Shown: positions 100-21,333 of the stretch, in pieces
How positions within the stretch are numbered: position 1 is the stretch's first letter
How the letters are laid out: each line of letters begins with the position of its first letter
Virus record (IMG/VR): IMGVR_UViG_3300012920_000338
Span: 1 to 21,356 of that record
Direction: 5' to 3' (one strand)
Length of the DNA stretch: 21,356 nt
DNA from: a virus
The notes under the pieces: generated by a model
The model's database searches: none
Seen by the model: only the letters and a program-made list of their open reading frames with translations
What the model was told of the DNA's origin: nothing
Program-made: the position numbers and the translations under genes

Positions 100-1089
100 T
101 TATCCTCTGTGATATTTAGGTGCTTTCTTTCTTTTACCTAATCTAATTCCTGCATCAGTTTGTACAGCGCCTCGCATTTCTTGTACATCTTCATTTAATC
201 CAACCATATGGCCAATTGATGCCCAAATTTCTTCTCTAGTCATTGTATCACCATAAGCTAAATCTTTTGGGTATGTTTTAACTTCAAGACTAGCCTTTTC
301 CCAAAGATCCTCACGAACTTCCTCTTTACTTCGTCTCTTTTTCATCATATCAAGTTTCATACCTTTAAATACTTTTTGTAAATAATCATTTAATTTTTCA
401 TTAAACTTCATATTTTTCTTTTCATTCTTTGATATAAATGCAAAGTAATAATCGCCATCTCTAACAGGATAACTTAAAGAATTCCATGCTTTTGGTCTAG
501 CTGAATTCTTAGGGCTATAATCTTGTTTCATTTCAGCCCTAGCCTTATCTAAGTCGCCAAAAAACTCTTCTGGTTTACTAAAGAATTTGAATTGTTTATC
601 AATTTCCTTATCAGATAAATTTTTTGAATATGCCTCAACAATTTCTGGTTGTAAATCTTCTTTCATATTAAGTATAGTAGATTCATTTGCGTACTGAAGT
701 GCCTTTTTAACCTCTGGGTGATTAGAAAGACCTCTCTTCATTTTCTCTATACCTTTTACTGCAAAGGTCATGGCTCCGCCATGGTCCAGTGCAAATTCTA
801 CAGCCTTACGGACTGTTTTATCTTTTTTAGCGCCAGGGTTTTTTCTCATGTATACACTGATTTCTTGACCAGTCAACTTAGACCCAGACATTTTACTAAG
901 TTTTTCTCTAAAATCTTTTAATTTCATTTTATCCTCTTTTAAATTACCTCCGGCATCTGCAAAAGCCGCAATTGCCATTTTTCTTCTTTGATCCATACTT
1001 TTACCTTGGAACTGTGGCGCGTCTGATTTCATAAAATCTTTTATCCATGCCCCAATACCATCACTTACTTTTAACTTTTCGTTTATCAT
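100..1089 (-). CDS. Conserved marine-phage protein with an N-terminal SDAPQF-type module
   Basis: A 329-residue soluble, lysine-rich protein. Residues about 9-47 hold the block DGIGAWIKDFMKSDAPQF followed by GKS...RRKMAIAAF and a glycine pair. I recall this block from many uncharacterised proteins of T4-like cyanophages and pelagiphages, but its function is not known to me. The rest is mixed helical sequence with many charged residues and no recognisable catalytic motif. No signal peptide or membrane segment is seen. Its ATG overlaps the stop of the upstream nucleotidyltransferase gene as ATGA, so the two are probably translationally coupled. Unlike its neighbours it lacks the F-x-x-[FY] leader. 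Its place in a late operon suggests a virion or assembly role (inference). Confidence 0.8.
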   Translation of the reverse strand: MINEKLKVSDGIGAWIKDFMKSDAPQFQGKSMDQRRKMAIAAFADAGGNLKEDKMKLKDFREKLSKMSGSKLTGQEISVYMRKNPGAKKDKTVRKAVEFALDHGGAMTFAVKGIEKMKRGLSNHPEVKKALQYANESTILNMKEDLQPEIVEAYSKNLSDKEIDKQFKFFSKPEEFFGDLDKARAEMKQDYSPKNSARPKAWNSLSYPVRDGDYYFAFISKNEKKNMKFNEKLNDYLQKVFKGMKLDMMKKRRSKEEVREDLWEKASLEVKTYPKDLAYGDTMTREEIWASIGHMVGLNEDVQEMRGAVQTDAGIRLGKRKKAPKYHRG

Positions 1090-2441
1090 ACTTTAGCTGC
1101 TAGGTCCTTATCAGCCTTACCCCATGTTCCAGGCGATTTAGTAACAAAAGAATTAACTCTTGCAAGTCCCCATTGTGTTGGTGTAGTACCTGGTCTATGA
1201 CCAGTTCTCCAGGCTGCAACTCCCCTATCAAAAACCTTCTTTAAAATAGCATAAGGCATACCTGACTTATCAGCCTTTTTCTGTAATGCCGCTTTACTAT
1301 TTTGTTCTGTAACTGCAAAGTCTTCAAAACTTAATGTATTTTCACCAAACATTTGTTTATATTTCTTAGTATGTACTGAAGGTTTAGTTTTTGCAGTTGC
1401 ATCTCCAGGGGCAGGTTTATAGGCCGCTGGATTATCATCGCTCATTTTGCCATGTTTCTTAAAGTGTGCCGCTCTTTTATTCTTAGTAGATTTAGTTTTT
1501 ATACCTTTATAATAACCTACTGGTTGTGATCCTTTTCTATCTCCGACATCTGGATCCTCTTTACCTTTTTTATTTTCTGTTTGTCCTGGAGTCATTTTCT
1601 TTGTATGTTTGGCGTAATCGGCACCTATCTCATACACCTCATCTAACCAAACTTTTTTGTTTCCTCTGGCTAATGATACTGTAAGATAATTTGACCCTTT
1701 TGTAATAATAGTTCCAATCTCACCTGATTCTATAATTTCCACTTCGTCACCGACATTAAATATATTACCTTGTACAAACTTTTCCCTTGTCTCCGATAAT
1801 GTTGGTAGTTCTATGTGTTTACGAAATGATTCTTTTTTAAGACCCATACCTTTACGGATTGCATAGTATAGTACTTGTATACCTTCGCCTGGTACTTCTA
1901 ATGAGTTATCTGCAAAACCTTGTAAATCACCTGCGGCGACAAAGGCTCTTAATTTAGATGCAGACATACCAGTTACGCCTTCTGCGTCTGGGTCCCTATG
2001 TCCTGCAGATATTACTCTAATTCTATCTTCAAATTGATAGAATCCGTGTCTGTTCTTCATACCATTATACTTGTTTAGTAGTATATCAAATTCTTTTATT
2101 CTATCTGATCCTGCAACCATAGTAACTTTAGTAAATCCTTGGTCATACAGTTTTACTGCAATATCGAGTACTGTTCTGACATCTGGATCTGCCATAATAT
2201 TACGCGCATGTTTTGGAAACATTTTACGCATAAATTTAATTTTTTGTTTAAATGGTAAAGGATTCTTTTTTGGATCCTGAGATTTAGATGCATATATTCT
2301 ATATGTACCACCTCGTGATACTTTTTTCAAAGTTTCAAATAGTTTTTCGTGCCCCTCTGTGGGCGGATTGAATCTACCAAAAACGAATGTTACTTCTTTT
2401 GATGATTCGACGATGTAATCGCTGAATGATTTAATTGACAT
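1086..2441 (-). CDS. HxGH-type nucleotidyltransferase fused to a KOW/SH3-like segment and a DUF5824-like C-terminus
   Basis: A 451-residue multidomain protein. Residues 17-200 look like a cytidylyl/adenylyltransferase (Rossmann) domain: FGRFNPPTEGH at 21-31 supplies the nucleotide-binding [HT]xGH motif, and GMSASKLRAF at 158-167 matches the S-x-S-x-L/R signature after the last strand. Residues 225-269 form a KOW/SH3-like barrel (NVGDEVEIIESGEIGTIITK). A basic linker with YYKGIK, RAAHFKKH and AYKPAPGD follows. Residues 383-450 (GMPYAILKKVFDRGVAAWRT, PTQWGLARVNSF) resemble the DUF5824 module of marine phages. The N-terminus MSIKSFSDYIVES looks like a T4 capsid-targeting leader ending I-V-E at residue 12. 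Similar cleavage-like sites occur internally at L-S-E (217) and V-T-E (379). Substrate unknown. SD GAGGA lies upstream of the ATG. Confidence 0.85.
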   Translation of the reverse strand: MSIKSFSDYIVESSKEVTFVFGRFNPPTEGHEKLFETLKKVSRGGTYRIYASKSQDPKKNPLPFKQKIKFMRKMFPKHARNIMADPDVRTVLDIAVKLYDQGFTKVTMVAGSDRIKEFDILLNKYNGMKNRHGFYQFEDRIRVISAGHRDPDAEGVTGMSASKLRAFVAAGDLQGFADNSLEVPGEGIQVLYYAIRKGMGLKKESFRKHIELPTLSETREKFVQGNIFNVGDEVEIIESGEIGTIITKGSNYLTVSLARGNKKVWLDEVYEIGADYAKHTKKMTPGQTENKKGKEDPDVGDRKGSQPVGYYKGIKTKSTKNKRAAHFKKHGKMSDDNPAAYKPAPGDATAKTKPSVHTKKYKQMFGENTLSFEDFAVTEQNSKAALQKKADKSGMPYAILKKVFDRGVAAWRTGHRPGTTPTQWGLARVNSFVTKSPGTWGKADKDLAAKV

Positions 2442-2460
2442 TTATATCCTCGGTTTCCCA

Positions 2461-3702
2461 TTAGCTGGGGTTATCCCAACCTTTTATTATATCTTTGCTG
2501 AAATTATTAGTAGAGAATTCTAATCTGTCTACTAACTTAACAGCACCACCTTCCATTCGGTCTATGGCAACAAATCCCTCGGGATTGGTTACTCTAAACC
2601 CGGATTTAGTTTTTACAAAAGTTCCTATAGAACTTAACTTGTTTAGTTTATTTATAAGAATTAATTTCGCATCCACTACAAAATTCTGCAAATCAAAGAT
2701 ATTTTTTAAGTTTTTTATATTATTCTTACTAAAAAACGATAATAATTCATCTCTTTTAGTTATTTGCACATCTTTTCCTTTCTGTGATTTTCTTTTATCT
2801 ATTTCTTTTGCATATCTATCATTTACAAACATAACCAGACCAGTCGCATGTTTTTTAGTATCTGTTATTCTTTGTCCTTCTCTAACTACTCTATTATTGT
2901 AAATATTAATGACTAGATTTAATTCTTTATTTTGTTCTATTTCTTTTAAAACATTACTTTGTATTTTTTTAAATATCTTACCGGCATTCGATAAGTTACT
3001 ATTTAACTCTTTGGTTTCTGCAGAAGTTAATGTTGCAGTTCCAGATAGGTCTGGTAGTGTCGCATCGACCATCCAAACATCTTTTGTTCTTTTAAGTTTA
3101 GGGACTATTTCTCGGCCAAATTCAGCCCTCATAGTTTCAAATGTTGCACCACTATATGAAGTGTGCCAAACGATACCAACTTTTGCTGAAGTTATTTCTT
3201 TGGCCATTGCGTTATCGGTTGGTATTGCGTATACAATAGTATTCGGATGGAAAGTAATATGAGAAACTCCATTTATTTTTTCTTTCTTTAGGTCTGATTT
3301 ATCAAACATAAAGTCACCTTGAATTACTCCTTTAATACCTACACCTTTTAAACTATCAAATGCAAGTTTTAATTTTTTAGATAAATCGCCAGATGTATCA
3401 GCATCTATATCAGCATGTGATTTATATATTTTAGGATTCTTTGCAAATATACCTTTCTTTGCAACAAAGAATTCTCCAGTTTCTGGATCCTCTCCCGCAA
3501 ATACAGCGGGGGCACCGTCCCATTTGACTGTAACATCTACAGGTGCTTTTGTGTTACCAGACAACATATCCCTCAGTGATCTAAGCGCGAGGATAGCTTG
3601 GCGTGCCCCCTTAACTCCACCATCAATAATCAAGTCCTCAATATGAGTCATATGAGTATTCTTCGATTCCGTTAATGGTATGTATGAATTAAATCTTCTC
3701 AT
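2461..3702 (-). CDS. Ligase-like nucleotidyltransferase (DUF6267-like)
   Basis: A 413-residue protein. The order of motifs fits the covalent nucleotidyltransferase (DNA/RNA ligase, capping enzyme) fold: motif I K60-W-D-G-A-P-A with the candidate nucleotidylated lysine, a motif III-like IQGDFMF at 127-133, motif IV EGFVAI at 375-380 and a motif V-like AVKLVDR at 387-393. A long helical insertion separates III from IV. I recall the same framework from cyanophage proteins called DUF6267. Whether it joins nucleic acid ends or modifies another target is unknown. The N-terminus MRRFNSYIPLTES fits the capsid-targeting pattern, with L-T-E at 10-12. Its start shares ATGA with the stop of the 413-residue gene's downstream-coordinate neighbour boundary pattern: its ATG at 3702 overlaps the stop of the ParB-like gene at 3699. 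Confidence 0.78.
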   Translation of the reverse strand: MRRFNSYIPLTESKNTHMTHIEDLIIDGGVKGARQAILALRSLRDMLSGNTKAPVDVTVKWDGAPAVFAGEDPETGEFFVAKKGIFAKNPKIYKSHADIDADTSGDLSKKLKLAFDSLKGVGIKGVIQGDFMFDKSDLKKEKINGVSHITFHPNTIVYAIPTDNAMAKEITSAKVGIVWHTSYSGATFETMRAEFGREIVPKLKRTKDVWMVDATLPDLSGTATLTSAETKELNSNLSNAGKIFKKIQSNVLKEIEQNKELNLVINIYNNRVVREGQRITDTKKHATGLVMFVNDRYAKEIDKRKSQKGKDVQITKRDELLSFFSKNNIKNLKNIFDLQNFVVDAKLILINKLNKLSSIGTFVKTKSGFRVTNPEGFVAIDRMEGGAVKLVDRLEFSTNNFSKDIIKGWDNPS

Positions 3703-10133: not shown

Positions 10134-11189
10134 TTACTCCTCTTGTAAAGTACTTTCTAAATCAATGTCAAGCAATGGTTTGTGACCAATAGAATAATAT
10201 GATGTTAGAAATTCTTTAAAGTCTGTATTTTCAAAGATAGGTAACCAAAAGTCCTTTTCTCTTGTTGCCTTTTCTCTTACCTTAGGTTCTTGTATTTCAC
10301 CTGTATCTTTATCAACTGCGGCATACCAACCCATAGAAGGTTTTACTACATATCCACCAGCCAATGCTACTTCTAATAGACCAGAGTATTGCTGAATACC
10401 ACCTTCCCAGGATACGCCGATTGGTACTTTAGATTTTTCTTTGACAAATCTTGACTTCTCGACATTAATTACAAAGTTATAACCTGTAACATCTTTACCT
10501 GTTTTTTCTTGTTGTCTTCCTATAATCCAGATATTGTCGGCCGAGTAATAAACACCCGTACCACCTGATACAATCGCCTTAGGGAATAGTCCAATTTCTT
10601 GATAGGTATGATTAACGGCAAGTAAAGGGATATTCTTCATTGTAAGATAAGGAGTAACCATTCGGAATAATCCCTTTAGTGCCTTGGCCCTTGACATATC
10701 TGCCACTGACTTTTCGTTAAGAGCATCTTCTAGCTCTTTTTTACTTGCGAGGTTACCAATAGAATCAATTACAATTACTACTTTATCTCCTCTTTCAATA
10801 TTATCTAACTGACCTACTAAGTCAAACTTTAATTGTTCGACATCAGTAATAGGAGTGTGTAGTACTCTTTTTGCATCAATTCCAAATGCCTCGAAATAGC
10901 TTTGTGGTGATCCAAATTCTGAATCATAAAATAGTAATACTGAATCTTCGTGTTCTTTCAAGTATGCACTAGCCATAAGTAGTGCAAATGAAGTTTTGAA
11001 GTGTTTACTTGGTCCTGCCAAAACAGTAAGACCTGAAGTCAACCCACCATCGGGATCACCTGACAATGCTACATTAATCATAGGTACTTCGGTTGGTACC
11101 ATATCCTTTTCTGTAAAGAATACAGATTTATCTAAAACCTCTGTAGTTTTAATTTTAGAATTCTTTTTTAGTTTATCCATTACTGACAT
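10134..11189 (-). CDS. uvsX: RecA-like recombinase UvsX
   Basis: A 351-residue T4 UvsX homologue that forms filaments on single-stranded DNA and drives strand exchange for recombination-dependent replication. Walker A GPSKHFKT lies at 59-66, in the T4-type form with K in place of the second G. LLFYDSEFGSP (85-95) carries the catalytic acidic residue, and Walker B KVVIVIDSIGNL is at 136-147. VSGGTGVYYSADNIWII follows as the DNA-binding L2 region and strand. An SD (GAGGA) lies in the last codons of the bS21 gene, one base upstream. The position before gp41 matches the T4-like replication module. The C-terminal acidic tail (DIDLESTLQEE) is typical of RecA-family proteins. Confidence 0.95.
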   Translation of the reverse strand: MSVMDKLKKNSKIKTTEVLDKSVFFTEKDMVPTEVPMINVALSGDPDGGLTSGLTVLAGPSKHFKTSFALLMASAYLKEHEDSVLLFYDSEFGSPQSYFEAFGIDAKRVLHTPITDVEQLKFDLVGQLDNIERGDKVVIVIDSIGNLASKKELEDALNEKSVADMSRAKALKGLFRMVTPYLTMKNIPLLAVNHTYQEIGLFPKAIVSGGTGVYYSADNIWIIGRQQEKTGKDVTGYNFVINVEKSRFVKEKSKVPIGVSWEGGIQQYSGLLEVALAGGYVVKPSMGWYAAVDKDTGEIQEPKVREKATREKDFWLPIFENTDFKEFLTSYYSIGHKPLLDIDLESTLQEE

Positions 11190-11190
11190 A

Positions 11191-11457
11191 TTATTTTCCT
11201 CTTGTTTTTCTAAAAGTACCTATTTGGTTTACTCTTTCATATTTACGCCATCTGGCAATTGCCTCGGCCTTTTTTCTTTTTCTTTTTGCTGTTGGTTTTT
11301 CGTAAAATTCTTTTTTACGGACATCTTGTAGAATACCAGCTCTTTCTACTGCCTTTCTAAACTTTCTTAACCCGACATCAAACGGCATAGGTTTGGCAGG
11401 GCGTTTATCATTTTTTCTTCGCCTTTGGTTTTGTGGTCTTAAATCAATACTTGGCAT
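11191..11457 (-). CDS. rpsU: Phage-encoded ribosomal protein bS21
   Basis: An 88-residue, very basic protein. The bS21 core spans about 27-67: [20 protein letters not shown], then [17 protein letters not shown], the family signature. It has a 25-residue basic N-terminal extension ([16 protein letters not shown]) and a C-terminal extension ([20 protein letters not shown]), making it longer than bacterial bS21 (about 65-71). In bacteria bS21 sits beside the 16S 3' end and influences mRNA recognition at initiation. Phage bS21 is reported from several marine phages, including pelagiphages; incorporation into host ribosomes is the usual proposal. SD AGGAG lies 4 nt before the ATG. It is transcribed with uvsX and gp41. 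Confidence 0.93.
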
Positions 11458-11469
11458 AATTCTCCTATT

Positions 11470-11883
11470 TTAAATTTTTTGTTCACACACTCTTTTTCTT
11501 AAATCACTAGTTGAAAATCTATGGTCTCGTTTATTAAAGTAAAACTCAATATCTCTTTGTTTACATAAATCTCTACCAGTGAAGTCCTTATCTCGATACT
11601 CGACTCCCATAATCTTGACATCAATATCATACATAGAAAGAATATCCAATAATTCTTCTTCGGTATTATAAACTAATATTTCATCTACATATTTAATTGA
11701 GGCCAATTGTGCCTGCCTTTCTACTATGTTTTGGACAGGTTTATTTTTCTCTGGTCTGTCAACAGAAGGATCATTCTGTAGTGCACATATTAGATAATCG
11801 CACACACTTTTTGCCTCTCTTAACATTGCACAATGACCTGCGTGAAGTAAGTCAAAGGTAGATGCTGTAATACCAATTTTCAT
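11470..11883 (-). CDS. Cytidylyltransferase-like protein (TagD/HldE-C type)
   Basis: A 137-residue single-domain nucleotidyltransferase. TASTFDLLHAGH (6-17) carries the HxGH nucleotide-binding motif, and HRFSTSDLRKRV (121-132) the S-T-S-x-L signature. Length and motifs match glycerol-3-phosphate cytidylyltransferase and the ADP-heptose adenylyltransferase domain, which activate small phosphorylated sugars or polyols. GVEYRDKDFTG at 93-103 is like the HldE/RfaE subgroup. The substrate cannot be read from the sequence. It starts in a TAATG overlap with the GIY-YIG-like gene. Nearby epimerase and UDP-glucose dehydrogenase genes suggest a shared link to sugar nucleotides. Confidence 0.88.
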   Translation of the reverse strand: MKIGITASTFDLLHAGHCAMLREAKSVCDYLICALQNDPSVDRPEKNKPVQNIVERQAQLASIKYVDEILVYNTEEELLDILSMYDIDVKIMGVEYRDKDFTGRDLCKQRDIEFYFNKRDHRFSTSDLRKRVCEQKI

Positions 11884-12569
11884 TACGAATAAAAGTCCTC
11901 AATGAATTTAAAAGCCATTTCTTTATTTTTAACACCTATGTTAAAATGATTTCTAACACCAACCTCTTTGATGTCTGTAATACCAAACTCTTCGCAGAAG
12001 GTATATAACTGTTCCTTCCTAGTTTCTAATACATCATCTTTTGCATGTATCATTATTTTTAACAATACTTCATCGTCAGTTGTAATCTCTAAAACTGGTT
12101 GCATCTTATGCGTTGTTTCAAACTCTAATTGATGATGATGGGATTTTACAACATAGACATTTAATCTGCCCTTAAATATATTGTAATTTTCCACATACCA
12201 GTCTGGTTGTGATTCGAAATTGTCATGTTGACTTTTTTCAAATTCGTTAAATAATTCACTCATTTTTGCCATAATAAAACACTCCTTATAATGTCCAGAG
12301 ACTGAGTTATCTCTTGGACTTTCATTAGTAATTAAAAAGGATTCCAATAAAAAAGATTGGTAATCCCGTTTGTCAAATCGTTCAAGGTTTCTTGCGATGA
12401 TGTATAAATCTTTAATATCGTATCCCTTGTCTCCGACATGAGATTGGGCTCTATTTTTATTACCCTTTCCAATATATACCCATTTTCCATCTTCTTTATA
12501 ACCATAAACATACTGACCTAATGTTTCCCAACAAGCTGCAGGTATAGATTCAGTATCTTTTAAAAACAT
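11883..12569 (-). CDS. GIY-YIG-like nuclease-domain protein
   Basis: A 228-residue protein. QYVYGYKEDGKWVYIGKGNKNR (split as QYVYGYK at 19-25 and VYIGKGNKNR at 31-40) matches the GIY...YIG core, R40 fits the catalytic Arg, and E76 in LLESFLITNESP fits the metal-binding Glu. The C-terminal 130 residues are unrecognised. GIY-YIG proteins include homing endonucleases, and free-standing ones are common in T4-like phages. Attack on host DNA or mobility are both possible. The promoter's -10 box lies 8 nt before the ATG and no SD is present, so the transcript should start at or next to the ATG (leaderless). Confidence 0.78.
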   Translation of the reverse strand: MFLKDTESIPAACWETLGQYVYGYKEDGKWVYIGKGNKNRAQSHVGDKGYDIKDLYIIARNLERFDKRDYQSFLLESFLITNESPRDNSVSGHYKECFIMAKMSELFNEFEKSQHDNFESQPDWYVENYNIFKGRLNVYVVKSHHHQLEFETTHKMQPVLEITTDDEVLLKIMIHAKDDVLETRKEQLYTFCEEFGITDIKEVGVRNHFNIGVKNKEMAFKFIEDFYS

Positions 12570-13037: not shown

Positions 13038-13604
13038 CTATTTGTAGAATAAGTGGTTATCAATAACCGCCACTAATTCTAATTGTTTTGACCAATAAGG
13101 TTCTACAAAATCTGCATGATACCATAATGATCCTTCTGTTATATCAGGATATGCTCCCGACAATACTAAATCTGCAATCCAGAGAGAGTCCAACCAAGTC
13201 TCCGAATCCTTTGGTTCGTCTGATTTACCATCACAATACCAACTAAATTGACATTGATTTCTAATAGGTACTTCATTACCTTTCCAATTAATCTTTGTTT
13301 TTGCCTGATATATTACACCGCATACACTATTTGGAAACATATTAGAATGTTCTCTGTTTATTACAACATGTGCAACTGCAAGTTTTCCTGCGAATGATTG
13401 ATTTGCCGCTTCAAAATAAACATTTTTAGCAAGACAAACTATATCTTGATCATTATCTAAATCTACTGTATGACCATGATAAGTTAAATTGTTTTTATCA
13501 TTTTCGTATTTAATAACATCAGCCGTTAAATGCGGTAACAATAATATACTACAAACAATTGCAGCTATCCATAAGGATATTTTTCCATAGTCTGGGTCAT
13601 TCAT
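13038..13604 (-). CDS. Membrane-anchored SleB/CwlJ-type cell wall hydrolase
   Basis: A 188-residue protein. A hydrophobic segment at about 10-28 (SLWIAAIVCSILLLPHLTA) forms a signal anchor, with the catalytic domain beyond it from residue 53. CLAKNVYFEAANQSFAGKLA (57-76) carries the family's catalytic Glu (E65), followed by VAHVVINR and CQFSWYCDG (118-126). SleB/Hydrolase_2 enzymes cleave peptidoglycan glycan strands as lytic transglycosylases. An uncleaved weakly hydrophobic anchor would fit a signal-arrest-release endolysin; this is inference. It starts in an ATGA overlap with the epimerase gene, placing a probable lysis enzyme among metabolism genes rather than in the late block. Confidence 0.88.
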   Translation of the reverse strand: MNDPDYGKISLWIAAIVCSILLLPHLTADVIKYENDKNNLTYHGHTVDLDNDQDIVCLAKNVYFEAANQSFAGKLAVAHVVINREHSNMFPNSVCGVIYQAKTKINWKGNEVPIRNQCQFSWYCDGKSDEPKDSETWLDSLWIADLVLSGAYPDITEGSLWYHADFVEPYWSKQLELVAVIDNHLFYK

Positions 13605-14455
13605 ATTTGTTCCTTTAAATAAGACATTAAGTTATTTTTACACTTCCAACCTAATTCTTTTATTTTATCAGTTTTAAGTTCTCCGTCCATTCTATTACCA
13701 GGTTTTTCTGGCTGTAGGGATGGGGTGCAATTTAATGCCTTTACAACATCTAGTATTGAATACTTTTCATCAGAACCAATACCATAATCATCGCCACTAC
13801 CTTTAAATGCCGCAAGTATTATTCCATCAACTATATCGTCAATGTGTGTAAAGTTTCTTGTTTGAGTTCCAGGCATAGTTACAGGAAGTTCTATTACTCC
13901 TTCCTTAACCATATTTATAAACTTTCCAATAACTGTTGCATACTTACCCTTTGATATTTCATTATCGCCATATACATTATAGAAGTATACAATTGAATAA
14001 TCAAGGCCATACCAATCTGAATAGTTTTTTAGAAGTTCAGTATTCTGTGCCTTAGTATATGCATAAGGACTCATATTTCTACCACCGCCCTCTGCAAACT
14101 TAGTTGACGAACCAGAGTAAATAAGTTTTGCGTCTTGTTGTTTTGCAAAATCAAGTATATAAGGAAACCCATGATAATTAGATTTCATTACAGTATCGTA
14201 ATCACTAAATGATTGTTCTACTCTTGCGTATTCGCCTAAATGAAATATATAATCATATGTAGGTTTTGTATATCTTAACGCACCAGCAATGTCTTGAGGT
14301 GTTCCATAATAATAAAAACAACCTTCTTGTTCGTTACTTCTTTTGCCAGTGCTGTAATTATCAAATGATACTACTTTATGACCATCTTTAACTAATCTTT
14401 TTACAAGTGCCGTACCTATAAATCCGGCACCACCTGTTACTAATATTTTTGACAT
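13601..14455 (-). CDS. NAD-dependent nucleotide-sugar epimerase/dehydratase (extended SDR)
   Basis: A 284-residue extended short-chain dehydrogenase. VTGGAGFIG (6-14) is the NAD-binding glycine motif, D32 in SFDNYSTGKR is the adenine-ribose acidic residue, SGSST (114-118) supplies the catalytic Ser/Thr, and Y131-x-x-x-K135 the catalytic pair. THIDDIVDGI is the conserved substrate-side segment. It resembles UDP-glucose/UDP-glucuronate epimerases and is slightly short for the family. It could make a sugar nucleotide for DNA or surface glycosylation with the UDP-glucose dehydrogenase. TATAAT ends 8 nt before its ATG with no SD, so translation is probably leaderless. Confidence 0.9.
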   Translation of the reverse strand: MSKILVTGGAGFIGTALVKRLVKDGHKVVSFDNYSTGKRSNEQEGCFYYYGTPQDIAGALRYTKPTYDYIFHLGEYARVEQSFSDYDTVMKSNYHGFPYILDFAKQQDAKLIYSGSSTKFAEGGGRNMSPYAYTKAQNTELLKNYSDWYGLDYSIVYFYNVYGDNEISKGKYATVIGKFINMVKEGVIELPVTMPGTQTRNFTHIDDIVDGIILAAFKGSGDDYGIGSDEKYSILDVVKALNCTPSLQPEKPGNRMDGELKTDKIKELGWKCKNNLMSYLKEQI

Positions 14456-14495: not shown

Positions 14496-15689
14496 TTAAT
14501 TATCATTATATACATCTCGGGTATATACCTTATCCAAACAATCTTCTAATTGATTTTCCATTCTATTTGTCACAATTACATCTGATAGTTTTTTAAATTT
14601 ATTTAAGTCATTCTCTACAATACAATCCATAAATTCTCCATTAAAACTAAATGCTGGTTCATGGATAATGACTTTAGTTTGTGGTTTTAATCTTTCAATA
14701 ATACCTTGAATTGCAGAACTTCTAAAGTTATCGGAACCAGATTTCATGATTAATCTGTATATACCAACTACTTTAGGAGATTTGTGTAATATTTGATTTG
14801 CAATGTGGTCCATTCTAATCTCGTTAGAATAGACAATTGATCCAACCAGTCTGTTAGGTATTCTATTTGTTTTATAGTTTGATAACAATTGTTTTGTATC
14901 TTTTGGAAAACAATAACCACCATAACCAAATGATGGATTATTATAACCTCTACCTATTCTTTTATCTCTTGTTACGCCGTCTATAATTGATTCCGTATCC
15001 AATTTATGATATTCAGCATAAGTATCTAATTCGTTAAAGTATGCAACTCGCATCGCAAGATAACTATTTGCAAATAACTTTACGGCCTCTGCCTCTGTAG
15101 TTCCAGTAAATATAACTGGTATTTTCATTGACTGTGGAATCGCTGAGTTTACAAATAAATCATATAAAAACTCTGCGTCTTCTATATGTTCTGGACTTGA
15201 ACCAATTACAATTCTATCTGGTCTTAATGCATCTCTTAATGCAGTACCTTCTCTAAGAAATTCTGGACAAAACATTATATTATTAAAGTTAAATTTACTT
15301 ACCATTTCCTTACAAAATCCTACTGGAATAGTAGATTTAATTACTATCATTGCCTCTGGATTTATTTCTTTAACATCTCGTATTACTCCTTGGATAGAAT
15401 CAGTATTAAAATAGTTTGTTACTGGATCATAGTCTGTTGGAGTTGCGACTATAACCCAATCAGCATTTACATATGCAGATTTTTTATCAAGGGTTGCCGA
15501 TAATTGTAATACTTCGTTTTCCAGATAATCCGTAATATCTGCATCTTCAATTGTAGATTGTTTATTATTTACCTTTGATACTCTATCAGCATCAATATCT
15601 AAAATAGTTACACTATTATGTTTTGCCAACATAACGGCATTTGCCATTCCGACATAACCAGAACCTACAACAGTTATTCTTTTATCCAT
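14496..15689 (-). CDS. ugd: UDP-glucose 6-dehydrogenase
   Basis: A 397-residue member of the UDP-glucose/GDP-mannose dehydrogenase family, which oxidises the sugar nucleotide twice with NAD to the uronate. The N-terminal Rossmann motif GSGYVG is at 9-14, KSTIPVG at 118-124, CPEFLREGTAL at 141-151, the central helix KLFANSYLAMRVAYFNE at 204-220, and the catalytic Cys260 in FGYGGYCFPKDT. The C-terminal UDP-binding domain is present, so the enzyme looks intact and near normal length (about 390-440). SD GGAGGAG lies 8 nt before the ATG, within the 3' end of the 66-residue gene. Product use is unknown; the glycosyltransferase at 17601-18506 is one candidate. Confidence 0.94.
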   Translation of the reverse strand: MDKRITVVGSGYVGMANAVMLAKHNSVTILDIDADRVSKVNNKQSTIEDADITDYLENEVLQLSATLDKKSAYVNADWVIVATPTDYDPVTNYFNTDSIQGVIRDVKEINPEAMIVIKSTIPVGFCKEMVSKFNFNNIMFCPEFLREGTALRDALRPDRIVIGSSPEHIEDAEFLYDLFVNSAIPQSMKIPVIFTGTTEAEAVKLFANSYLAMRVAYFNELDTYAEYHKLDTESIIDGVTRDKRIGRGYNNPSFGYGGYCFPKDTKQLLSNYKTNRIPNRLVGSIVYSNEIRMDHIANQILHKSPKVVGIYRLIMKSGSDNFRSSAIQGIIERLKPQTKVIIHEPAFSFNGEFMDCIVENDLNKFKKLSDVIVTNRMENQLEDCLDKVYTRDVYNDN

Positions 15690-16274: not shown

Positions 16275-17201
16275 TTATAGTTGATTTTTATATACATAAT
16301 CCAATGCCCTTTCGGCCTCTTTATCCAGAGGTCTTTTTGCATACCAGTTACCAGTATCGAAATCTAATTCTCTACATAAATAGGCAATCTCGGATGCCGT
16401 AATTGGATATCCATTCTTAATCGCGTTACCAGCCAGTGCCACCATTATCTGGTACATCTTGTGATACCAGCCGGTTCCGCTTATTGTTTTATATTCTTGT
16501 TCTAATTGTTTTGGAAAAAATGGACAGTCCTTATATCCACTCCACTTAATATTTGTATTTGTTAATTTACTCTTAACATGTTCCATCATTGCTTCTTGCA
16601 TTTTCTTTGGTAGTTTATCAAAGAAAGTATTTCCAGATTTTTCTACATAAGGATGTTTTTCCATAAGAGTAACTGGATTAATATATTCACCTTTGTGAGT
16701 AAATATAAAGTTGTAGGCTTTCTTGTATTTTCCAGGGATATAATACATACGCGATAAATCTTTAGTTTGAATATCGCCCATTTCGCCTAGTTCTTTATTA
16801 ATTGCATACCAGAAATGTTTGATATTATCTTTATCAACTATATTAGTTAAAGGAAACACAAGTCTAAATTTAGGGTTCTCTTTAGTGGACGATGCTGTTG
16901 AATAACAAACATAATAAAAATCTCCACACTTTTTCTTTAGGAACTGTTTTATATCTCCTTGAAAGTCATCTACATCTACAGCACACCAACCGCCCCATGC
17001 TGTAACATTGTCATTAGCCCTTTTAGTATATTTCTTATAAATGGCTGGTGACATTAATTCCGCTGATTTTTTGTCCTTTCTTGGTTTTTTAGATAAACGA
17101 TAAAGGACATCTTCGAAGTTATCGAATGATTCTAATGTAATTGTCTTATTTGTCTTTACGTCGTATAAAGAATCAAATAATGTACCAGATATTTTTTGCA
17201 T
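16275..17201 (-). CDS. Archaeo-eukaryotic-primase-like (PrimPol/VirE-type) protein
   Basis: A 308-residue protein. WCAVDVDDFQGDIKQFLKKK (72-91) holds the D-x-D metal motif, YSTASSTKENPKFRLVFPL (100-118) matches the second conserved block with a basic/Arg residue, and DLSRMYYIPG (148-157) fits the third (D..sR..y.PG). This order is typical of AEP-type primases found in plasmid and phage replication proteins. The C-terminal 130 residues are helical, similar in position to PriCT domains. The usual T4 primase gp61 is of the DnaG/Toprim type, so this would be a different or additional priming enzyme. Function remains inference. TATAAT ends 8 nt before the ATG, with no SD. Confidence 0.72.
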   Translation of the reverse strand: MQKISGTLFDSLYDVKTNKTITLESFDNFEDVLYRLSKKPRKDKKSAELMSPAIYKKYTKRANDNVTAWGGWCAVDVDDFQGDIKQFLKKKCGDFYYVCYSTASSTKENPKFRLVFPLTNIVDKDNIKHFWYAINKELGEMGDIQTKDLSRMYYIPGKYKKAYNFIFTHKGEYINPVTLMEKHPYVEKSGNTFFDKLPKKMQEAMMEHVKSKLTNTNIKWSGYKDCPFFPKQLEQEYKTISGTGWYHKMYQIMVALAGNAIKNGYPITASEIAYLCRELDFDTGNWYAKRPLDKEAERALDYVYKNQL

Positions 17202-17242: not shown

Positions 17243-17608
17243 TTATCCACCCATTGGTGAAATAGTTTCATCGTCTACTACTTCGTCTATTAAGTCTGAA
17301 TGTTGTTCTATTTGATCCTCATGCATCCATCTAAGTAAACTGTTTCTAGTTTTATCAGTTGGTGGGAACCAAATACCTTTTGTTTTAGGAGTTACAGTTT
17401 GTCCAATTAATTCTGCAAATGCCAATAAGTCTTGTTCATTTCTAAATCTAACTTTTAAAATTTTCCAGGCCTCTACTTGACCTTGTTCAAATTTTGGCAT
17501 ATCGTCCCATTCATAAGGTGTTTGTTCTTCTTCTTGACCAGACATAACAAACAATGATTCAGGTTCATAGTTAATTCTACGATCCGCTTTATTTTCACTT
17601 TTAGCCAT
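17243..17608 (-). CDS. Conserved acidic marine-phage protein (121 aa)
   Basis: A 121-residue acidic protein. The core YEWDDMPKFEQ (32-42) and WKILKVRFRNEQDLLAFAEL (48-67), followed by GQTVTPKTKGIWFPP, forms a small alpha/beta domain. I recall this motif set in marine phage proteins, sometimes attached to ParB-like or DNA-modification proteins; its role is unknown to me. It overlaps the glycosyltransferase gene by 8 bp and follows it, so the two probably work in the same context. No promoter lies between them. Confidence 0.78.
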   Translation of the reverse strand: MAKSENKADRRINYEPESLFVMSGQEEEQTPYEWDDMPKFEQGQVEAWKILKVRFRNEQDLLAFAELIGQTVTPKTKGIWFPPTDKTRNSLLRWMHEDQIEQHSDLIDEVVDDETISPMGG

Positions 17609-18506
17609 AATCTACCTCCGGTTTTAGTTTGACTAATTTAAGACCATACTCATTAGTATGACCTTTCTTAATATTTAGCCCACTTTTTAGCGTAGGCGGT
17701 GTATGTTGAAATTGAGAATAATCAATATGATGATGCCATCTTCCCCATTTCCATGTTACTCTTACTTCGTCAGGGTGCTGTCGCCTTAGTGATTCGGCAA
17801 ACTCTCTTCTATTATCAAAGTCAGCATTACCTTCCCTTGACCCTTGATCACCTGTTTTATCAATATTATAAAGTTCTTCTGTATTACCACCTTTCATTGT
17901 CATTGTAGTAATCTTACCACATGCGAATGCATTAAATAAAAATGTATGGTAACCAGCCTTCATAATTCTTAACGATAAATCTGTATCTTCGTTGTATCTA
18001 CCTCTCCAGGCAAACTCTGGATATATATCATTGGATAAACATATACAACTATAAACCCTAGTGTTATGATAATAAGGTGGTCGTTTAGTATGTGCTGGTA
18101 AAAAATATGCATAGTTCATACCGAACATTTTTACATCTTCGTATCTATCAGCAAAGTCTTCACATGCTCTGAAACAAGTACCATCTGTTACTTTAATTTT
18201 TCCATTGTTATGCAGACGATAGAAGTGTTGAATATTATCATCTAAAATCCAATGTCTTTCTGCACCTGATTTAACTGCGTGTTCCCAAACATAATTTCTT
18301 GCTGGTATTGAACCTTGACCTAAATTACTAAATGGTAATACCTCTATATTTGCTGGGTCTATAACTGCGGCATAATCATTGTACTCTTGTGGTTCAATAA
18401 CAATCTTATAAGGAATTCCTAAATGGTCCAATGACTTTACAGTCATTCTAGTATCAGCCCTACCTTTAGAGATAATATAGATTGGATATTTTGGTTGATT
18501 ACCCAT
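17601..18506 (-). CDS. TET-associated glycosyltransferase-like protein (TAGT)
   Basis: A 301-residue GT-A-fold transferase. YPIYIISKGRADTRMTVKSL (7-26) is the start typical of the TET-associated glycosyltransferase family, followed by YKIVIEPQEYNDY and GQGSIPARNYVWEHA. The metal-binding acidic motif LDDN is at 88-91. RGRYNEDTDLSLRIMKAGY (168-186) is the second conserved GT-A motif. In phages this family has been proposed to glycosylate oxidised or hydroxylated bases in DNA. No hydroxylase or base-synthesis gene is visible in the window, so DNA is a likely but unproven acceptor. It starts in a TAATG overlap with the Sm-like gene and is followed by the 121-residue protein. Confidence 0.85.
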   Translation of the reverse strand: MGNQPKYPIYIISKGRADTRMTVKSLDHLGIPYKIVIEPQEYNDYAAVIDPANIEVLPFSNLGQGSIPARNYVWEHAVKSGAERHWILDDNIQHFYRLHNNGKIKVTDGTCFRACEDFADRYEDVKMFGMNYAYFLPAHTKRPPYYHNTRVYSCICLSNDIYPEFAWRGRYNEDTDLSLRIMKAGYHTFLFNAFACGKITTMTMKGGNTEELYNIDKTGDQGSREGNADFDNRREFAESLRRQHPDEVRVTWKWGRWHHHIDYSQFQHTPPTLKSGLNIKKGHTNEYGLKLVKLKPEVDYG

Positions 18507-18778
18507 TATGTAATTACCTTTTTATCAGGTACAACAATACCACTTGTCATGGTTCTTACTTGTTCAGCCAACTCGTCGACTGGATCACATATCATAAGTA
18601 CATGTCTTTTATCAATTATAAATTCTTTTTCTTTTGCATATGCCATAAATGGTATAAATGCCATTTTACCAGGTTCAGTAGAAACCAGATTAAAACCATT
18701 ACTAATTGTAATACTGTTTTCTGATTCTCTTACTTCTCCGATTACTTCCTCTTGTGAGGTTAATCTAACTAATTTCAT
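18506..18778 (-). CDS. Sm-like (LSm/Hfq-type) small protein
   Basis: A 90-residue protein with a short-strand, beta-barrel-like pattern: MKLVRLTSQEEVIGEVRESE, then ITISNGFNLVST, MAFIPFMAYAKE, EFIIDKRHVLMI, then a tail with VRTMTSGIVVPDK. I recall this sequence type from marine phages, and a crystal structure of a putative cyanophage Sm-like protein supports the fold. LSm proteins form rings that bind RNA and assist regulation. It is the first gene after the promoter at 18801-18829, with an SD (GGAG) 6 nt before the ATG. RNA chaperone activity is inferred, not seen. Confidence 0.75.
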   Translation of the reverse strand: MKLVRLTSQEEVIGEVRESENSITISNGFNLVSTEPGKMAFIPFMAYAKEKEFIIDKRHVLMICDPVDELAEQVRTMTSGIVVPDKKVIT

Positions 18779-18834: not shown

Positions 18835-21333
18835 TTATCCAAAAAAGTCATCTAAAGTTCCAACCTCTTCTGTAGACCAACCAACGGCCTTGAAGATATG
18901 TTCGATAGGATCCAAGAATGTTTTTTGAAATTGTAAGTCATAATCTATATAGCGATCCAAGCCAAACTCCTCTGGCAGATATTGCATAAATCCAATAACA
19001 TTCTCTTTTATAGGATTTGGAGTTTTAAGATAACAAAACTTAATCTTCTCGCCATTTTGGATTGGTTGATATTTCTTTGTAAGATTTAGGTCCTTGACCA
19101 TTTTATTATGTAACAGTGCGGCACGAACATGTATTGGAGTACCTTTACGATATATTGATTCTGCACTACGATAGTCTGTAACATTAGATACTCCTCTAGG
19201 AAAGGCAATATCATTTGCTGGTAAGGTTTTAAAATATGTTCTAAATTGTTCGATGGCCTTTTGGTTCTCTTTTTCGTTACCTTGCATCATGACCTTGAAT
19301 AATTCTTTTAAACCCTGTCTGCATGGGGCAGGTGTTGAAGATTTAATGGCCTCGATACCCATAATTTTAAGTTTAGGTTTTTTATAACGAACACCCTCGT
19401 TATCATGTACATTTAAAATATATCTTTTCTTTGCAGTCCAGATTGCACGGTCACCGATGGCCTCTCGTTTCATAACCATGCGATTGTCTATGCCGCCCAT
19501 AAGTCCGAAAAGTTCTTGATACGCATCATGTAAAACTGGTTCTAGTTTTTCACTGGCCACTTTGTCAAGAAAGTCGATTGGATTTTTAGGATTTAATTTA
19601 TTTACCATAGGTCCCATATTTACATAAAGAGAATCAGTATCGATGGCAATAATATAATCTGTATTAGTACCCATGACTTTGTTTAGATATTTGTTAAGTG
19701 CAACTTCGGCCCAACGAATAGTAAGTTGACCAGATAAAGTAATTGCCTCTGCAATTCTTTGGTCAAAGAAACGAAAGTACTTGTTACCCATTGCACCGTA
19801 AAGTGAGTTAAGAAGAATTTTAATGGCCATTTGTTGGTTTTCTGCAACTGATATTCTTCGTTCAATGTCATATAATTTTTGTTTATCTCCAGGGACAACT
19901 GTTTGTAATTCTTTTTGTGCCTTAATCATTTGGTTTTTAATAACAACCCTTTCACTATACATCTCGTCTACTAGTGTCGGCATAACACCTTTTTTATCAA
20001 CAGTAAATGCCTGGCCGTTGCCACCTATTGCATAACCTTTATTGTCCAAAGTATAACCATCTAATATTTTATCAATATCAATACCCATAACATTACCATC
20101 GACGATTGTTTCTGGCGACATATTATATTGCATAATAATTGATGGATATAGTGAGTTAAGGTCGAATGATAAAACATAGTCATGCATTCCAATGTGAGGA
20201 TCCTTAACATATCCACCAGGATAACTTGTTTTGACCTTTGATTTAGAGAATGGCATTGCCACTTTTTTCTGATGTAGATAACGATATATGATTGTGTCCC
20301 ATATCGCAGTTACGCCAAATGTGTCTCCATAATTTACCCCACCTTTATATGCCATAGTTAACATTAAAGTAATAAGGCCCATCTTATCTTCTAATCGGTC
20401 AACTAATTCCACGTCCTTGATATTATAGTCAATAAATTTTTGATGGTCGTTTTTATATAAACTATGAAGTGTACCATATTCTTCGTATGATAGTTTCTCT
20501 TCGCCGAGAATAACATGGGCAATATGATTTAAGGAATATGATTCTTGTGCAGTATAAGTATATTTCTGAAATAGTTCCATATAATCTGCATGACCAATAC
20601 CTGTAATATCATATGTAGTTTGTTCTCTGTTCATAACTCGAACAGTTCTTCTATTAAGTAAACCCCAGGGTGAAAATCTTTTGGCCGCATCTTCGCCTAG
20701 TAAACGAACAGTACGATTTATTAAATATGGAATATCAAAGAACATTGTATTCCAACCAGTAATAACATCGGGAGTATTACTAGGAGTTGACCAGTGAGTA
20801 ATAAATTTATGTAACAGTTGAAGTTCTGATTCACATTTTACATATACTACACGATTAGTTGTCATATATGATTGTTCTGCATTATAATCACCGAGACCCC
20901 AAACATAATAGGTATTATCGATATTATTTTTAATAGTAATTGCTGTAATTGGATTATTGGCCATATCTGGTTCTGGAAATCCGTCATCGGATTGGACCTC
21001 GATATCTATGGTTGTAACATTAATTAAGTTACGATTAAATTCTATATGACCTGGGAAGTGTTCGTTTATAAATTGTGAGATATATCTGTCGTTGCCAAAT
21101 ATTTGACGACCGGCAGTATCTTTGTTTGTTTGAATCCATTCTTTTGCGTCTCGCATGGATTCGAATTGGATTGGTGAACAAGATTTACCATCTAAGGTTG
21201 TCCAGTCACCTTTTGATGATGAGACATAAAGTGTTGGTTTATATTTGATTCTTCTGGAAATCTTCTTGCCATTTTCGTAACCACGATAAAGTAACATGTT
21301 TCCATAGCGTGAGACATTAGTGTAAAAATTCAT
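18835..21333 (-). CDS. 43: Family B DNA polymerase gp43
   Basis: An 832-residue T4-type replicative polymerase with proofreading exonuclease. Exonuclease motifs: TTIDIEVQSDDG (107-118), GWNTMFFDIPYL with D200, and YNIKDVEL (303-310). Polymerase motif A DLNSLYPS (391-398), motif B KILLNSLYGAMGNKYF (505-520) and motif C IDTDSLYVNMG (564-574), so all catalytic acids are present. The C-terminus (FLDPIEHIFKAVGW...LDDFFG) resembles the T4 clamp-binding tail. It is somewhat shorter than T4 gp43 (898) and like marine relatives; no intein or frameshift is seen. The ATG at 21333 lacks a clear SD but forms an ATGA with a possible upstream gene frame whose last codons read YIIMDLST, so coupling to an upstream gene such as regA is possible. 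Confidence 0.97.
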   Translation of the reverse strand: MNFYTNVSRYGNMLLYRGYENGKKISRRIKYKPTLYVSSSKGDWTTLDGKSCSPIQFESMRDAKEWIQTNKDTAGRQIFGNDRYISQFINEHFPGHIEFNRNLINVTTIDIEVQSDDGFPEPDMANNPITAITIKNNIDNTYYVWGLGDYNAEQSYMTTNRVVYVKCESELQLLHKFITHWSTPSNTPDVITGWNTMFFDIPYLINRTVRLLGEDAAKRFSPWGLLNRRTVRVMNREQTTYDITGIGHADYMELFQKYTYTAQESYSLNHIAHVILGEEKLSYEEYGTLHSLYKNDHQKFIDYNIKDVELVDRLEDKMGLITLMLTMAYKGGVNYGDTFGVTAIWDTIIYRYLHQKKVAMPFSKSKVKTSYPGGYVKDPHIGMHDYVLSFDLNSLYPSIIMQYNMSPETIVDGNVMGIDIDKILDGYTLDNKGYAIGGNGQAFTVDKKGVMPTLVDEMYSERVVIKNQMIKAQKELQTVVPGDKQKLYDIERRISVAENQQMAIKILLNSLYGAMGNKYFRFFDQRIAEAITLSGQLTIRWAEVALNKYLNKVMGTNTDYIIAIDTDSLYVNMGPMVNKLNPKNPIDFLDKVASEKLEPVLHDAYQELFGLMGGIDNRMVMKREAIGDRAIWTAKKRYILNVHDNEGVRYKKPKLKIMGIEAIKSSTPAPCRQGLKELFKVMMQGNEKENQKAIEQFRTYFKTLPANDIAFPRGVSNVTDYRSAESIYRKGTPIHVRAALLHNKMVKDLNLTKKYQPIQNGEKIKFCYLKTPNPIKENVIGFMQYLPEEFGLDRYIDYDLQFQKTFLDPIEHIFKAVGWSTEEVGTLDDFFG

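Follow-up and report, generated by a model that had tools for sequence, protein, structure and literature searches.

The predicted glycosyltransferase of the TAGT family encoded in the window (by which we mean the whole stretch of 21,356 nucleotides that was analysed, a 21-kb fragment of a marine T4-like myovirus) has a dedicated partner, a small protein here called p121, and both stand together with phage genes for nucleotide-sugar supply between gp43 and uvsX. We propose, with slightly less than even confidence, that the two proteins glycosylate phage DNA with a sugar derived from UDP-glucuronate or a related one; DNA as the acceptor, considered on its own, has somewhat more than half the probability, and the virion DNA of this phage would then be hypermodified. 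The genes concerned are the following:

18835-21333, minus strand: gp43 DNA polymerase, bounding the slot on its 5' side (PHROG 262, 1053 bits)
18506-18778, minus strand: small conserved protein encoded in the gp43-TAGT interval (PHROG 527)
17601-18506, minus strand: predicted TAGT-family (PF20691) GT-A glycosyltransferase, 301 aa, ATG start (Pfam profile, AF2 fold, motifs, dN/dS)
17243-17608, minus strand: p121, 121 aa, ATG start, dedicated TAGT partner (co-occurrence, fusions, dN/dS)
16275-17201, minus strand: primase-like protein, used as anchor gene (PHROG 9765, E 4.6e-48)
14496-15689, minus strand: UDP-glucose 6-dehydrogenase, UGD (455 bits to the solved Klebsiella UGD 3phl)
13601-14455, minus strand: NAD-dependent nucleotide-sugar epimerase-like SDR (Pfam Epimerase, 134.6 bits)
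11470-11883, minus strand: cytidylyltransferase-like nucleotidyltransferase of TagD/HldE-C type, CTP (Pfam CTP_transf_like, 53 bits)
10134-11189, minus strand: uvsX recombinase, bounding the slot on its 3' side (PHROG 97, 300 bits)

The sequence-only reading had placed a TAGT beside gp43 and near genes for UGD, a sugar epimerase and a cytidylyltransferase, and it holds on all of these points. The gp43 of the window is most similar to that of phage C48C1 (51%), then to those of cyanophages (48-49%). The primase-like gene is kept between gp43 and uvsX in relatives with and without TAGT, and for this reason it probably serves replication and not modification; it may substitute for T4 gp61. A protein similar to the product of 18506-18778 is likewise encoded in TAGT-less relatives (L319 ORF). 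Where TAGT is absent, gp43 and the primase-like gene stand about 0.44 kb apart; where it is present, the distance grows to 2.5 kb. As described for T4, T6, and RB69 (PMC13390438, PMC6024577), this slot reads 43-imm-42-b-gt-uvsX in T4 and 43-imm-42-ggt(TAGT)-uvsX in T6, and the arabinose module of RB69 lies in the same interval; by this comparison of gene order, the window TAGT occupies the place where T-even phages keep their DNA-modification genes. The corresponding interval of cyanophage S-SM2 holds only one hypothetical CDS of 171 bp, and C48C1 (L235) carries, exactly where TAGT and p121 would stand, a Dam-like adenine methylase (11492-12376), with UGD and SDR kept.

The 301-aa protein matches PF20691 over the full length of the profile (positions 1-205; 139.6 bits, E 1.7e-40, with a curated cut-off of 27.5 bits), which confirms the family first assigned to it, and it also matches PHROG 842, 'beta-glucosyl-HMC-alpha-glucosyltransferase' (E 4.7e-38). 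In an alignment of 50 TAGT homologs, D89, D90, and D174 are invariant and E173 is found in 90% or more; the window protein thus has both motifs of GT-A enzymes, DD (donor/metal) and ED (catalytic), and they are retained in T6 ggt. A structure search with its AF2 model (pLDDT 86, pTM 0.85) retrieved GT-A enzymes at Z 13-15, among them POMGnT1 (5ggf; Z 15.3, rmsd 2.9, 191 aligned) and GalNAc-T2 (6nqt; Z 14.9, rmsd 4.3, 227 aligned), as well as BcsA, hyaluronan synthase, and TarP. Among viral models, the matches were to further TAGTs and to one Klebsiella phage beta-glucosyl-HMC-alpha-GT (E 1.2e-10), and the search for a sequence-related solved structure found none. On the modelled fold, then, the window TAGT is a predicted glycosyltransferase of the GT-A type, and this common fold leaves the type of acceptor undecided. 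In many relatives a second TAGT paralog (about 30% identical, PF20691 86 bits; e.g., L005:11253-12164) follows p121; it is absent from the window, and two TAGTs could attach two sugars.

The reading frames of TAGT and p121 share 8 bases (..GGAGGTAGATTATGGCTAA..), and a GGAGG ribosome site lies within the 3' end of the TAGT gene, an arrangement consistent with translational coupling. Measured by the Nei-Gojobori method against the homologs at L025 (91% identical for TAGT), dN/dS is about 0.08 for TAGT (dN 0.060, dS 0.729) and about 0.09 for p121 (dN 0.058, dS 0.670), values so low that both are genuine genes under strong purifying selection. A p121 homolog adjoins TAGT in most of the TAGT loci retrieved; conversely, of the 80 viral loci collected by searching with p121 only, 79 have a TAGT no more than about 4 kb away, and in the single one lacking it p121 starts 43 bases from a contig end. 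Primase-anchored loci with room upstream (n=67) carried both genes in 23 cases, one alone in none, neither in 43, and the Dam-like methylase in one (C48C1). Among bacterial genome records, 34 of 42 TAGT loci contained p121 and 19 of 42 a ParB match.

Fusions point in the same direction. Seven viral ORFs have p121 joined to the N-terminus of TAGT; at L053/L056 a single protein of 510 residues is arranged in the order ParB - p121 - TAGT (PHROG 620, 4e-42; PHROG 842, 1.7e-44), and other loci encode a ParB-p121 protein of 200-220 residues adjoining TAGT. In the cultured phages Aeh1, 65, phiAS5, POP12, and PTm1, p121 forms the N-terminal part of TAGT (HMM, E 1e-13 to 3e-17; about 3e-14 to 6e-15 for this domain of the Aeromonas phage TAGTs); tblastn with p121 gave no match in annotated phages owing to the divergence of this N-terminal domain, which was later found by HMM. 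Together, co-occurrence and fusions mark p121 as a TAGT-specific, obligate partner domain. The idea that the 121-residue protein might be a cofactor of TAGT has therefore gained substance, and the hunch of a ParB-like partner found its counterpart in the ParB-p121-TAGT polypeptides. Since the ParB domain of these polypeptides is common to phage DNA methylases, the simplest interpretation would be that p121 is a targeting subunit which brings TAGT to DNA. The ParB-domain phage DNA methyltransferases (PHROG 498/620) indeed share this same domain, whereas their catalytic part is a methylase and their match in phage records spans ParB only, not p121. The AF2 model of p121 is poor (pLDDT 64, pTM 0.30), and no Pfam family matches it above cut-off; a hit to DUF6982 (E 0.058) was dismissed as chance. 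Vibrio phage Kuja (L237) has two adjacent p121-TAGT fusion genes and, about 60 kb from them, UGD and an SDR 49% identical to that of the window.

With regard to the donor, the window UGD is full-length, with NAD-binding and central domains and an intact catalytic Cys motif (GYGGYCFPKD), and it would be expected to make UDP-glucuronate. The SDR has YxxxK and finds its best solved match in UDP-glucose 4-epimerase 4zrm (87 bits); the glutamate of the STSE motif typical of UXS is missing (the segment reads GSSTKFA), and its identity as a UDP-xylose synthase was rejected on the lack of the S/T-S-E motif before YxxxK. Being nearest to 4-epimerases and without that glutamate, it would most likely yield an epimerised UDP-hexuronate, and the cytidylyltransferase-like protein is possibly part of the same supply. 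These features bear on the alternative of a pentosylation like that of RB69 or Thanatos, in which UGD and a UDP-xylose synthase or epimerase would provide UDP-xylose or UDP-arabinose for 5-hydroxycytosine. The slot is that of the RB69 module, and at L050/L051 an SDR of the UDP-glucuronate-decarboxylase (UDP-xylose synthase) type (STSEVYGDP..GPRSCYDEGKR) directly follows TAGT; the window SDR, however, is not of this type, and tblastn with the RB69 5-hodCMP synthase, ORF052/053, and arabinose-5-phosphate (A5P) isomerase was blank in the TAGT loci. We regard pentosylation as very improbable here.

To what extent do these sugar genes belong to TAGT at all? We counted them at loci anchored on the primase-like gene, with C48C1 left out. 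UGD was present at 8 of 8 loci with TAGT and 1 of 23 without (Fisher p 1e-6), SDR at 8 of 8 and 9 of 23 (p 0.003), and CTP at 7 of 8 and 6 of 23 (p 0.004), all of them counts that ignore common descent. The nucleotide-sugar supply that the sequence-only reading had linked to TAGT is thus reproduced at a fixed anchor, most sharply for UGD. One may still argue that the three genes are neutral passengers with some other function and that TAGT entered the slot incidentally: SDR and CTP do occur in loci lacking TAGT, and C48C1 has UGD and SDR without any TAGT, so the link is neither absolute nor exclusive. Against this stand the distribution of UGD, the occurrence of UGD in two separate classes (about 395 aa and 270-290 aa), both retaining the catalytic Cys, which accompany TAGT in different clades, and the near-complete genome G44, where TAGT-p121-UGD-CTP-SDR form a group of five genes far from gp43. 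An origin as passengers is accordingly an unlikely explanation.

On these grounds, the glycosylation that we propose would be carried out by a two-component enzyme. The GT-A TAGT, with its metal-binding DD and catalytic ED, would transfer the sugar, and p121, as an obligate accessory domain, would probably position the acceptor, like the ParB-linked domain fused in other phages. The donor would most likely be derived from UDP-glucuronate, made by UGD and epimerised by the SDR, rather than being plain UDP-glucose of the host. The acceptor would most likely be the DNA of the phage itself, modified in the vicinity of the replication fork so as to block host nucleases.

The case for DNA as acceptor is built upon four observations: the ParB fusions, the position in the replication module, the C48C1 Dam methylase in the same slot, and the biochemistry of T6, whose ggt is reported to add glucose to glucosylated hmC in DNA (PMC13216743). 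T6 ggt resembles the window TAGT in its family (PF20691, 39.4 bits), its GT-A fold, and its slot between gene 43 and uvsX; nevertheless, the two are very distant (about 18% identity; 10.5 bits with an HMM of the window clade), the 261-aa T6 protein has no p121 domain, its slot has no phage UGD, and T6 possesses gp42 and alpha-GT, neither of which was detected in the window clade (for alpha-GT, in Pfam inventories). The competing view is that TAGT and p121 act on proteins, whether of the virion or of the host, or on glycans of the host surface, with UGD, SDR, and CTP forming a sugar supply of the capsule or LPS type. Several findings speak for it and against DNA: the top structural matches include GT-A enzymes that glycosylate proteins (POMGnT1, GalNAc-Ts), TAGT adjoins terminase and portal genes in siphophage-like loci, and known acceptor-making enzymes (TET/JBP, gp42/5-hodCMP synthase, C5-methylase, 2OG oxygenase) were not found in the large relatives G44 and G04. 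Furthermore, at L067 (3904-9064) genes of a surface nonulosonic-acid type (NeuB, a CMP-sugar transferase, a class III aminotransferase, and a Gfo/Idh oxidoreductase) immediately precede a ParB-p121 gene and TAGT. All four observations that favour DNA weigh on the other side, and we consider a protein or glycan acceptor rather doubtful.

For glycosylation of DNA the question then arises of how the acceptor base would be prepared. The family profiles and a gene 42 query revealed neither a TET/JBP nor a thymidylate-synthase-family gene in the window, in agreement with the sequence-only reading, which had noted that the acceptor-making partner was not there. That reading had further tied TAGT to oxidised bases, and here the relatives give no support: none of the 47 related viral contigs bearing TAGT contained Tet_JBP (the positive control, phage Nigel, gave a weak match of 4e-8), and of about 40 bacterial-genome loci only one has it close to TAGT. 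A locus of Winogradskyella does have TAGT, Tet_JBP, and ParB close together, unlike the window and its 47 related contigs, in which TET is absent. After a search of 47 contigs and 28 genomes, a TET partner was rejected for the window clade, and to judge from gene content the label 'TET-associated' does not fit its TAGTs. A minority of TAGT loci neighbour a C5-methylase (L196, L202), Tet_JBP (L225), or an N6-adenine methylase (Vibrio 1.124.O), a further point in favour of DNA.

The other route named beforehand, synthesis of 5hmC or 5hmU, was likewise not met with in the relatives. No thymidylate-synthase-family (PF00303) protein was detected in any of the 47 TAGT contigs, including G04 (120,810 bp) and G44 (164,769 bp; 26 of the 34 T4 genes tested are present), with 5 of 5 positive controls detected (T4, RB69, T6, Aeh1, and PTm1). 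A sensitive HMM for gp42 and RB69 5-hodCMP synthase found no match in G44, G04, two further records, and the window, and a gp42-like partner was rejected for the relatives on these two results; T4 b-gt had no match in G44, G04, G24, G09, or the window. Pfam inventories of G44 and G04, limited to ORFs of 110 residues or more, for the most part with E <= 1e-6, and hence not exhaustive, did not show a C5-methylase, a 2OG oxygenase, or a T-even glucosyltransferase; they did contain ThyX, dCMP deaminase, ribonucleotide reductase, and ligases. Compared with C48C1, the extra genes of G04 and G44 are TAGT, p121, cytidylyltransferase, dCMP deaminase, ligase, RNase H, a PhoH-like protein, and one further protein without matches, with no obvious base hydroxylase among them. 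ThyX is present in 6 of 10 large TAGT records and is usual in cyanophages; it lies beside gp41 and was set aside as the missing acceptor enzyme on both grounds. The known routes to a hydroxylated base are thus not visible in most of the window clade.

These results also bear on the ordinary T-even scheme, in which an hmC or hmU enzyme would lie elsewhere in the genome and TAGT would add glucose from host UDP-glucose. The window is only a fragment, and the T6 TAGT works in this manner (PMC13216743). Besides, PTm1 has, next to its thymidylate synthase, a second, gp42-like PF00303 match of 37 bits, and the single PF00303 gene of the ackermannvirus Kuja could be a hydroxymethylase. The blank searches of the 47 contigs and with the sensitive HMM argue otherwise, as does the single, strong, and ordinary thymidylate synthase match in each of phiAS5, 65, and henriette; additionally, the phages for which gene 42 is listed in PMC2993671 include neither Aeh1 nor 65. 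POP12 gave one thymidylate synthase match split over two pieces, and two 47-kb Vibrio phages gave none. Altogether, the T-even scheme seems improbable for the window phage. A bolder form of our proposal holds that p121-TAGT is self-sufficient: p121, often with ParB, would deliver the transferase, and the phage's UDP-glucuronate-derived sugar would be placed on a base that no TS-family or TET enzyme has hydroxymethylated beforehand, the base being either unmodified or prepared by an unrecognised enzyme. We hold this only tentatively, as something that would rather surprise us; if true, it would explain solitary TAGTs in general.

Such solitary TAGTs, without alpha- or beta-GT, were reported in 288 of 753 phage genomes, and novel transferases were suggested (PMC13216743). 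Those of Aeromonas phages Aeh1, 65, and phiAS5 share 36-42% identity with the window TAGT across most of its length, and they differ in having p121 as an N-terminal domain, whereas the window has it as a separate downstream gene, with sugar-supply genes in the module. An Aeh1 glycosyltransferase, not necessarily the p121-TAGT gene, has been listed as presumably modifying DNA at an unknown base (PMC8056088). In RB69 (Mosigvirus), arabinosylation resembles the window in that sugar-supply and modification genes share the gp43-uvsX interval (PMC6024577); its transferase, however, is GT-B and acts on 5-hydroxy-dC from a TS-family enzyme (PMC6024577, PMC13390438), in contrast to the GT-A TAGT of the window, and its donor genes are different.

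In a literature search that did not include the paper believed to define TAGT, we found neither the p121 partner, nor the ParB-p121-TAGT architecture, nor the UGD association. Solitary TAGTs thereby gain an obligate partner domain, in many cases tied to a ParB domain; for one TAGT clade a phage-encoded uronate supply is indicated, and the known acceptor routes were not found. The cultured phages Aeh1, 65, phiAS5, and Vibrio 1.076.O allow a direct test of what solitary TAGTs glycosylate. Should it be DNA, one could expect a novel hypermodified base and perhaps also a novel way of making it, with a bearing on restriction evasion and on tools for writing and reading DNA modifications.

Several other genes of the window deserve a brief mention. 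Within the gp43-uvsX interval we noted a SleB-like cell wall hydrolase (13038-13604), a protein with a GIY-YIG-like N-terminus (11883-12569; GQYVYGY..YIGKGNKNRAQSH) that has homologs in 16 TAGT loci, and, adjoining uvsX, a phage ribosomal protein S21-like gene (11191-11457). Elsewhere, positions 1086-3702 encode two large proteins matching PHROG 3041/395 (cytidyltransferase) and 455.
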